From assembly GCF_014138265.1 (NCBI RefSeq), contig NZ_JACGXL010000002.1, forward strand, positions 682,001 through 746,000: DNA of 64,000 nucleotides, in the 5' to 3' direction. The stretch comes from Dokdonella fugitiva. GTDB taxonomy: Bacteria; Pseudomonadota; Gammaproteobacteria; Xanthomonadales; Rhodanobacteraceae. The translations under genes were made by a program, and so were the position numbers. Positions 60,325 to 62,214 of this stretch are shown piece by piece; positions within the stretch are counted from its first letter, which is position 1; every line of letters starts with the position of its first letter. The notes under the pieces were generated by a model. The model searched no databases. It was not told the origin of the DNA and saw nothing but the letters and a program-made list of their open reading frames with translations.

Positions 60325-61017
<693 letters not shown>

Positions 61018-61019
61018 CT

Positions 61020-61059
61020 GTCCGCGGCGTGTCCGCGGGCGTGTCCGCACGCGGCGGAC
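61020..61059. promoter_or_regulatory. Phased GTCCGC repeats with a hairpin; possible upstream activating site
   Basis: GTCCGC occurs at 61020, 61031 and 61043, spacings of 11 and 12 bp (about one helical turn), and GCGGAC at 61054-61059 forms a hairpin with the last copy. The array begins three bases after the SDR stop. It lies about 200 bp upstream of the sigma-54 promoter, a normal enhancer distance, but it could equally be the SDR terminator. Confidence 0.4.
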
Positions 61060-61251
61060 GCGCGCGCCGCGTCGCGCACGTGCGCATCCGTCGCGTTCGC
61101 GACGAATCGGGCGACGACATGCCGACCCATCCGCGATCGCGTGAAAACCACGTGAAATCGCCTTCTGCGCGTGCGCGACATGACTTCCGGCCTAGCAACT
61201 CTTTTCGCCTTCGCTGCATCCATTAGTCCGTGAGCAGGGCAGCTCCCCTGG

Positions 61252-61268
61252 TTGGCACATCGCTTGCT
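61252..61268 (+). promoter_or_regulatory. Sigma-54 (RpoN) promoter
   Basis: TTGGCACATCGCTTGCT matches the -24/-12 consensus (TGGCAC-N5-TTGCW): GG at 61254-61255 and GC at 61266-61267 are 10 bp apart, the invariant spacing. Only the G after TGGCAC is replaced by A. Predicted transcription starts near 61279, 27 bp before the ATG at 61306 with AAAAGGAGAC in between. No other sequence in the window matched this pattern. Confidence 0.75.
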
Positions 61269-61305
61269 CTGCATGAACTGGAAGCTCGTAAAAAGGAGAC
61301 ATGTC

Positions 61306-61653
61306 ATGAACGTCCGCACTCCGCTCATCCGCGCCGCCCTGGCCGCGACGATGGTCGCGGGTTCCTTCGCCATCGAGCGCGTGCCGCTCGCCGCCGCCGC
61401 CGATGCAGGCATGTCGGTCGAGGCGCGCGCGCCGCTGCACGCGACGCTGCTGCCGGCACTGCGCGTGACCGCACGCGCGGCGAACCCGGACGCCGGCGGC
61501 GCCACCGAACTCGCCGCGGGCGAGGCGTTGCCGGTCACCTTGCTGCCGACCGTGCGCGTGACCGCGTCCGCCGCCGACTTCGCGATGCTCGTCGCACCGT
61601 TCGAGCGCGTGTTCGCCGGCGACGCCGACGGCGTGCTGCTCGCCGCCGAGTGA
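61306..61653 (+). CDS. Small secreted protein with duplicated TLLPxxRVTA motif
   Basis: The 115-residue protein has a signal peptide (residues 1-29, ending about LAAAADA). The mature part has two copies of a motif: LHATLLPALRVTARAA and LPVTLLPTVRVTASAA, separated by 30 residues. No cysteine is present. I do not recognise a characterised family. AAAAGGAGAC six bases upstream of ATG 61306 is an excellent ribosome-binding site (an in-frame upstream extension exists but lacks one). It is placed directly behind a sigma-54 promoter, so expression should require an enhancer-binding activator. Confidence 0.7.
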   Translation: MNVRTPLIRAALAATMVAGSFAIERVPLAAAADAGMSVEARAPLHATLLPALRVTARAANPDAGGATELAAGEALPVTLLPTVRVTASAADFAMLVAPFERVFAGDADGVLLAAE

Positions 61654-61737
61654 CGCGACGGCGCGAGCGCGGCGTCGACGCCGCGCTCGCGCCACGGGTG
61701 CGCGCACCGCTCGCACCGATCCGGCGTCGACGTGGGC

Positions 61738-61743
61738 GATAAT
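61738..61743 (+). promoter_or_regulatory. -10 box GATAAT of trmL, possible leaderless start
   Basis: GATAAT ends six bases before the GTG start at 61750, with no Shine-Dalgarno-like sequence. Placement agrees with the boxes before uvrD and the hydrolase at 49495. A -35 element is not clear. Confidence 0.4.
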
Positions 61744-61749
61744 GCGCGC

Positions 61750-62214
61750 GTGCTGCACGTCGTCCTCTACCAGCCCGAGATCCCGCCGAACACCGGCAAC
61801 GTGATTCGCCTGTGCGCGAACAGCGGCGCCGCGCTGCATCTCGTGCGGCCGCTCGGTTTCGACCTCGACCACGCCAAGCTGCGCCGCGCCGGACTCGACT
61901 ACCACGAGTTCGCCGAGGTCGCGGTGCACGACGATCTCGGCTCGTTCCTCGCGGCGGTCGCGCCGCGCCGACTGTTCGCGTCGTCGACGCGCGGGCGCGT
62001 GCGCTACGACGAGATCGCGTACGCCGACGGCGACGCATTCCTGTTCGGACCGGAAACGCGCGGCCTGCCGCAGGACGTGCTCGACGCGATCGAGCCGGAC
62101 CGGTGCCTGCGCCTGCCGATGCGGCCGGGCAACCGCAGCCTCAACCTGTCGAATGCAGTAGCGGTCGTCGTCTACGAGGCATGGCGGCAGCTCGGCTTCG
62201 CCGGCAGCGCATGA
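61750..62214 (+). CDS. trmL: tRNA (cytidine(34)-2'-O)-methyltransferase TrmL
   Basis: The 154-residue SPOUT enzyme methylates the ribose of the wobble nucleotide in tRNA-Leu. The trefoil-knot motifs are visible: [21 protein letters not shown] at the front, [11 protein letters not shown] (motif 2) and [26 protein letters not shown] (motif 3). GTG 61750 is preferred because it gives the family N-terminus; an earlier GTG (61732) adds six residues. It converges on gpsA across a GTAG-ended repeat. The neighbourhood with gpsA and secB is conserved in many gammaproteobacteria. Confidence 0.93.

Follow-up and report, generated by a model that had tools for sequence, protein, structure and literature searches.

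A gene for a small exported protein that stands behind a sigma-54 promoter raises the question of which other genes it is switched on with and what its product does. The gene studied here lies in the window, a stretch of 64,000 nucleotides from Dokdonella fugitiva, whose genome is referred to as the own genome (G000); the genus of the window is labelled g1 and a second genus g5. On the plus strand, an ORF of 115 aa runs from the ATG at 61306 to the stop at 61651-61653 (61306-61653 including the stop) and is preceded by AAAGGAG, which resembles a ribosome-binding site, at 61292-61298, both as described in an earlier note on this sequence. That note had placed a near-consensus sigma-54 promoter at 61252-61268; the promoter is present and its GG-N10-GC spacing is exact, but it starts at 61253 (plus strand, 61253-61268), and its sequence TGGCACATCGCTTGCT is an exact rather than a near match to TGGCACRNNNNTTGCW. 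No sigma-70-like site was detected in 60900-61900. The N-terminus of the protein (61306-61422, plus strand, cleavage site approximate) was judged by eye to resemble a signal peptide, with basic residues, a hydrophobic stretch and an alanine-rich end, which agrees with the proposed secretion. The duplicated TLLPxxRVTA motif was likewise recovered, as TLLPALRVTA (residues 47-56; 61444-61473) and TLLPTVRVTA (residues 78-87; 61537-61566), both on the plus strand. The gene is flanked by an SDR gene and trmL. Directly past its stop and before trmL lies a perfect 34-bp palindrome (61660-61693), a possible terminator stem without T tract, at which the terminator scan made no call. An RNA element was rejected, the sole Rfam match, at the palindrome, scoring far under its gathering score.

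Homologues were collected by protein searches in 61 genomes (the own genome and 60 relatives) and by a profile search in 398 genomes of the order, with 10 candidates scored per genome. The protein searches led to 16 homologues including the window copy, 11 in g1 and five in g5 (G019, G078, G079, G082 and G084), and all 12 strong matches of the profile search fall in the same two genera. Four more g5 homologues, counted separately from these 16, were found through their upstream DNA, three via an element termed element 2 below (G080, G085 and G086) and one via the promoter pattern (G083). The latter (L174; G083:C315:9300-11900) contains three box-like units, LPTVSVIA, MPTVRVSA and LPTVRVTA, and its ATG lies 52 bp from a sigma-54 site that is exact. 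Alignment of 17 family sequences showed two units of the form xPLxVTLLPTVxVxA, to which some members add a third, and conservation of the residues before the box, P(L/V/I)xATL(L/M)P and PLPVTL(L/M)PT, proved to be no weaker than that of the VTA core. Comparison of the window copy with that of G015 gave a dN/dS of 0.48 (NG86) or 0.28 (YN00), with dN 0.091 and dS 0.189 (NG86); G078 and G085 gave 0.09 (dN 0.032, dS 0.368; NG86), and for G019 and G080 a dN of 0.261 and a dS of 0.608 were obtained (NG86), all of these being point estimates and the ratio lying below 1 in the three pairs compared. The statement that the protein has no known domain stands: searches with the window protein found nothing in Pfam up to E 1, in NCBIfam up to E 0.01 or among the sequences of solved structures in the PDB up to E 10. 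A Pfam scan of 17 members gave five stray matches, each in a single member and the best with E=1.4e-5 to an unrelated viral family, which were taken as low-complexity noise, and a phage origin was rejected as the PHROGs matches were weak (E 0.035 and 0.53). Single-sequence AlphaFold yielded a mean pLDDT of 36 and no usable model. The proximity to trmL, which the earlier note had proposed to check in relatives, was read as local synteny and an operon with trmL was rejected: trmL lies 3' of the gene in 8 of the 11 same-genus homologues and was not seen within the 1.0-1.4 kb examined at all eight g5 loci, and in the window the palindrome intervenes.

For the promoter, TGGCACR-N4-TTGCW with GG-N10-GC spacing was scored. 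The 4,770,069 bp of the own genome contain six exact sites and 42 more with one mismatch; as the reversed-pattern control gave 87 places (51 + 36) at up to one mismatch versus 48 for the true pattern, sites with one mismatch mean nothing alone. The ORFs 3' of the six exact sites encode a glutamine synthetase (according to Pfam), an HlyD-type adaptor heading a group of exporter genes, the 115-aa protein, a 163-aa protein with a spore-coat-U domain, a 61-aa protein and a 121-aa product without Pfam family. The sites at G000:C2:563375-563390 and G000:C2:260016-260031 are those 5' of the 163-aa protein, which is secreted, and of the 61-aa protein. Missing conservation of the -24/-12 elements in relatives that keep the gene had been named beforehand as a possible refutation of sigma-54 control. 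At least 10 of the 12 consensus bases were found within 200 bp of the ATG in 14 of the 16 protein-search homologues, with 12 of these sites 51-56 bp from the ATG and two at 83 and 91 bp, and six of the 14 have all 12 bases; G013 and G007 keep the gene, and in them a sigma-54 site is not recognisable. Among Markov sequences built from the upstream regions, 3.9% of 9,500 reach 10 bases, a value to be taken as a guide only because related sequences are not independent. The four homologues found through upstream DNA all have the site as well, which is a biased count and not independent evidence, and rpoN was present in all 12 genomes tested, the own genome included. As far as sequence conservation can tell, sigma-54 control of the gene for the 115-aa protein is therefore well supported.

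The earlier note had also described three GTCCGC repeats spaced at 11-12 bp about 200 bp upstream, where activators of sigma-54 promoters act. These correspond to three TGTCCGC half-sites at 61019, 61030 and 61042 (plus strand, 61019-61048), 11 and 12 bp apart and 211-234 bp upstream of the -24 element, which we propose as the upstream activator site. The triple-array pattern TGTCCG-N3-8-TGTCYG-N3-8-TGTCCG occurs three times in the own genome and not at all in the reversed control, and each of the three arrays precedes a sigma-54 site on the same strand, as would be expected for an activator-type array. Besides the array of the 115-aa gene (C2:743019, exact site), these are the array at C8:66891, followed by an exact site (C8:66968) and HlyD/ABC/MacB-type exporter genes, and the array at C2:221993, followed by a site with one mismatch (C2:222071) and the gene for a small secreted protein ending in RWQSLVPGAIK. 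Among the homologues of the 115-aa gene, the array is clear in G000, G015 and several g5 genomes, in several of the latter near the promoter and with dyads such as TGTCCACGGACA; at other homologues it is weak or absent, several g1 copies retaining just one or two TGTCC half-sites, and G007 and G019 have no TGTCC within 300 bp. A combined TGTCC-plus-sigma-54 pattern was noisy over 26 genomes, the reversed control being of similar size in many of them among the matches listed. It served solely for the choice of loci, and several of the 16 loci inspected were chance matches.

A further conserved sequence, element 2, reads ATGACTTCCGGCCTAGCAAC in the window (plus strand, 61180-61199; conserved as TGACTTCCGGNCTAGCAAC) and has no second copy in the own genome when up to three mismatches are allowed. 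Wherever both are present, it precedes the -24 element by 71-73 bp, a fixed spacing found in two genera, and by eye it contains no dyad. At least 16 of its 18 bases are kept in 9 of the 16 protein-search homologues; it is weaker in G084 and G011, missing in five (G007, G002, G012, G014 and G009) and retained in G013 despite the lack of a recognisable sigma-54 site there. At up to two mismatches, element 2 was detected at 25 places in 24 of 233 genomes, and 12 of these places precede a member of the 115-aa protein family. All eight places with no or one mismatch do so, and the 13 others, all with two mismatches, do not.

Other genes share the upstream arrangement with the 115-aa gene. The exporter locus (G000:C8:66968-76549; L050:8969-18550) encodes, on one strand, an HlyD-type adaptor, an ABC ATPase, two MacB/FtsX-type permeases, a DUF885 protein, an activator and a histidine kinase. 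The activator (G000:C8:73774-75117) is a sigma-54 response regulator with receiver, AAA+ and Fis-type domains, and the adjacent kinase shows a HAMP match slightly below cut-off. In G010, G005, G084, G086 and G083 the distance from the promoter to the start of the activator is 4,967-5,127 bp. The four exporter genes take up about as much (4,644 bp in the own genome), so the activator adjoins them in these genomes; the distance is 6.8-6.9 kb in the own genome, G015 and G007. An IHF-like stretch of the AATCAAT type was seen by eye near the exporter promoter in several relatives. When five proteins of the locus, activator and kinase included, were compared with NCBIfam, no equivalog cut-off was passed among the best 25 matches listed; RND_mfp, a subfamily model, is passed by the adaptor. 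Of the 26 genomes of g1 and g5, the own genome among them, 24 have an orthologue of the activator, 75-97% identical to the own copy. Among the 20 genomes bearing the 115-aa gene it is present in 19, the exception being G003, which is 77% complete. In G006 no activator orthologue was found at E 1e-90, and the RWQSLVPGAIK gene with its TGTCC and sigma-54-like sites is kept, which either counts against a shared activator or reflects an assembly gap; the weak or absent arrays at several homologues of the 115-aa gene also count against a shared activator.

The RWQSLVPGAIK protein itself, 124 aa long and encoded at G000:C2:222172-222543 (L061:6173-6544), was matched in all 16 g1 genomes and in 39 of 233 family genomes overall, many of them weakly. 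At all 12 loci examined, the C-terminus is RWQ(S/T)LVPGAIK, a sigma-54-like site (10 or 11 of 12 bases) lies within 350 bp and at least one TGTCC is found in the 130 bp before this site. This tail has the look of a signal for sorting or export, or else of a mature peptide. The exporter genes, the RWQSLVPGAIK protein and the 115-aa protein thus look like one regulon, and we infer from the upstream sequence common to these loci that the exporter-linked activator probably binds the TGTCC arrays. Such a regulon would share with those of the NtrC type the -24/-12 promoter, repeated upstream sites and an activator of receiver, AAA+ and Fis-type domains, and would differ from them in its TGTCC half-site arrays, the extra element 2 and its targets, an exporter and small secreted proteins. 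Accordingly, the description of the gene as an orphan is not supported: exporter genes with a downstream two-component pair share its upstream arrangement, as does another small secreted protein, and homologues of the gene exist in two genera. The observation on which the earlier note was built, a sigma-54 gene for a secreted protein with a duplicated motif, is confirmed and now stands more strongly than when it was made.

The lead to the nature of the duplicated motif came from the seven profile matches outside the family. Three of these are TonB-dependent receptors, aligned by their N-termini at the TonB box and with confirmed plug domains, three look OsmC-like (L098 confirmed, the one of the three that was checked) and one is unclear, with an internal stop. 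The own genome contains 21 plug-domain matches, from which the TonB boxes were picked by eye and 19 distinct boxes used to build a matrix. These boxes include LETITVTG and LEGVTVTA, and others such as ETLPTVVVNA, LQPTVQVTA and DLPAVVVTA are very like TLLPTVRVTA and TLLPALRVTA of the 115-aa protein. The second unit scored 17.2 bits and the first 11.9 bits, both inside the range of the receptor boxes when each was left out singly (-8.2 to 21.7 bits, median 12.0). Among 276 frames of at least 120 aa in the window (86,587 positions), these two units alone reach at least 11.9 bits, and when residues 38-115 were shuffled 20,000 times, two shuffles reached the top score and none the second-best score. 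At a threshold of at least 9.8 bits, 97 of 2,916 distinct frames of the fetched loci (705,999 positions) have one or more matches, so that a single match means little; two or more were found in 11 of the 2,916 frames, namely nine of this family, one receptor and one apparently antisense frame. Of 19 homologues scored at the same threshold, nine have two or more boxes, seven have one and three have none (G014, G009 and G086). Finally, an hhalign comparison with the N-termini of ten of the 21 own receptors, bearing on the first unit, aligned box to box with a pairwise E of 9.5e-5 and a probability of 58.7%, which is modest, the segments being short.

By these comparisons the duplicated motif resembles native TonB boxes. 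With TonB-dependent receptors the protein shares a signal-like N-terminus that is closely followed by an L-x-x-V-x-V-T-A/G box; it differs from them in having two or three boxes instead of one and in lacking a match to plug (PF07715) or barrel in Pfam, and for the latter reason it is not a TonB-dependent receptor. The suggestion of a signal, adhesion or motility factor is accordingly not supported, as nothing pointing to motility or adhesion was seen in the analyses made and the repeat resembles receptor TonB boxes, although the protein may have a role as a signal or exported peptide.

TonB is in short supply, and many receptors draw on it. Our best explanation of the locus, which we hold tentatively and at somewhat less than an even chance, is an exported protein of a sigma-54 regulon that presents free TonB boxes and is perhaps a TonB decoy; any function assigned to the 115-aa protein is tentative to the same degree. 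The gene would belong to the sigma-54 regulon marked by TGTCC half-sites, which would most likely be bound by the response-regulator activator G000:C8:73774-75117. Upon a cue sensed by the adjoining histidine kinase, RpoN polymerase would transcribe the exporter, the RWQSLVPGAIK protein and the 115-aa protein, and the latter would leave the cytoplasm by the Sec route. Its signal-like N-terminus would bring it into the periplasm, the compartment in which receptor boxes are met by the C-terminal domain of TonB. There, two free P-T-V-x-V-T-A boxes (three in some relatives) on an otherwise presumably little-structured chain could bind this domain by strand addition in the manner of receptor boxes, and the competition with the receptors would dampen or redirect TonB-dependent import for as long as the exporter is active. 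The full form of this idea, a genetically encoded decoy whose periplasmic tandem boxes are deployed together with the exporter and throttle or re-route import during an envelope threat, for instance by bacteriocins or phages that enter via TonB-dependent receptors, is conceivable and rather doubtful. No TonB-system gene was seen beside the 115-aa gene, its neighbours being the SDR gene and trmL.

Two observations on the family speak against a decoy, namely the strong conservation before the box, which TonB binding alone does not explain, and the varying quality of the boxes among the 19 homologues scored. Both would fit a protein with a structural role in the periplasm or at the cell surface, unrelated to TonB, in which the conserved L-P-x-V-x-V-x-A segments form beta strands that pair among themselves or with some other partner, and the alternating V-x-V is indeed typical of strands. 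Still, the window units match the TonB boxes of the own genome better than chance and no known fold or family was found in Pfam or among PDB sequences, which makes a structural role unlikely in our view. If the likeness to receptors is instead taken at face value, the protein could be a decayed or truncated TonB-dependent receptor of which a functionless signal peptide and duplicated box are left, and its architecture is that of a receptor N-terminus minus plug and barrel. With dN/dS below 1 in three pairs, two to three units kept across two genera and the promoter kept in 14 of 16 homologues, such decay is very unlikely.

The main rival starts from the exporter. MacB-type pumps take their cargo from the periplasm, and the 115-aa protein could be a pre-peptide that leaves by the Sec route and whose repeats are then set free, or pumped out by the co-regulated HlyD/MacB-type exporter, as a signal or antagonistic peptide. 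The likeness to TonB boxes would in that case be incidental or would help neighbouring cells to take the peptide up. The upstream arrays common to the 115-aa gene and the exporter genes are in line with this, as are the repeated units themselves, the second small secreted protein with near-invariant C-terminus in the same presumed regulon and a weak similarity of the adaptor to a darobactin-export adaptor, far under the cut-off of that model. However, the gene and the exporter lie on separate contigs, and the SDR gene and trmL beside the gene are not processing or immunity genes. Moreover, an activator orthologue persists in four of the five same-genus genomes without convincing homologue (G001, G004, G005 and G008, not G006), so the exporter does not need the 115-aa protein. 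We thus consider a role as exporter cargo improbable, though worth keeping in mind beside the preferred reading, the exported protein with free TonB boxes.

For that preferred reading, comparable systems can be named. The inhibition of TonB by a free pentapeptide was reportedly described by Tuckman and Osburne in 1992. According to two publications that cite this work, the TonB-box pentapeptide ETVIV inhibits TonB action (PMC11308372; PMC5413942). What this synthetic peptide would have in common with the 115-aa protein is a TonB-box sequence that is free and can compete for TonB; ETVIV is added from outside, whereas the box-like units here are genetically encoded, tandem and regulated. Colicins with a TonB box, of the colicin M type, are likewise soluble exported proteins, the box of colicin M being ETLTV (PMC11658791). 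The 115-aa protein differs from them in its tandem boxes, its Sec-type signal (by eye) and its sigma-54 promoter, and no family match to a colicin-type receptor-binding or toxic domain was found in the window protein with Pfam and NCBIfam. In the open-access literature, as far as its accessible parts go, we found no description of the 115-aa family or of an encoded TonB decoy, nor a dedicated natural inhibitor of the TonB-box interaction.

If the preferred reading is true, a regulated TonB-box protein would open post-translational control of TonB-dependent uptake to direct testing. It would also be a naturally occurring counterpart to the TonB-box peptide that inhibits TonB, and a natural template for TonB inhibitors. 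Apart from the decoy, a conserved sigma-54 regulon has been outlined that would comprise an exporter, a kinase, an activator and two families of small exported proteins.
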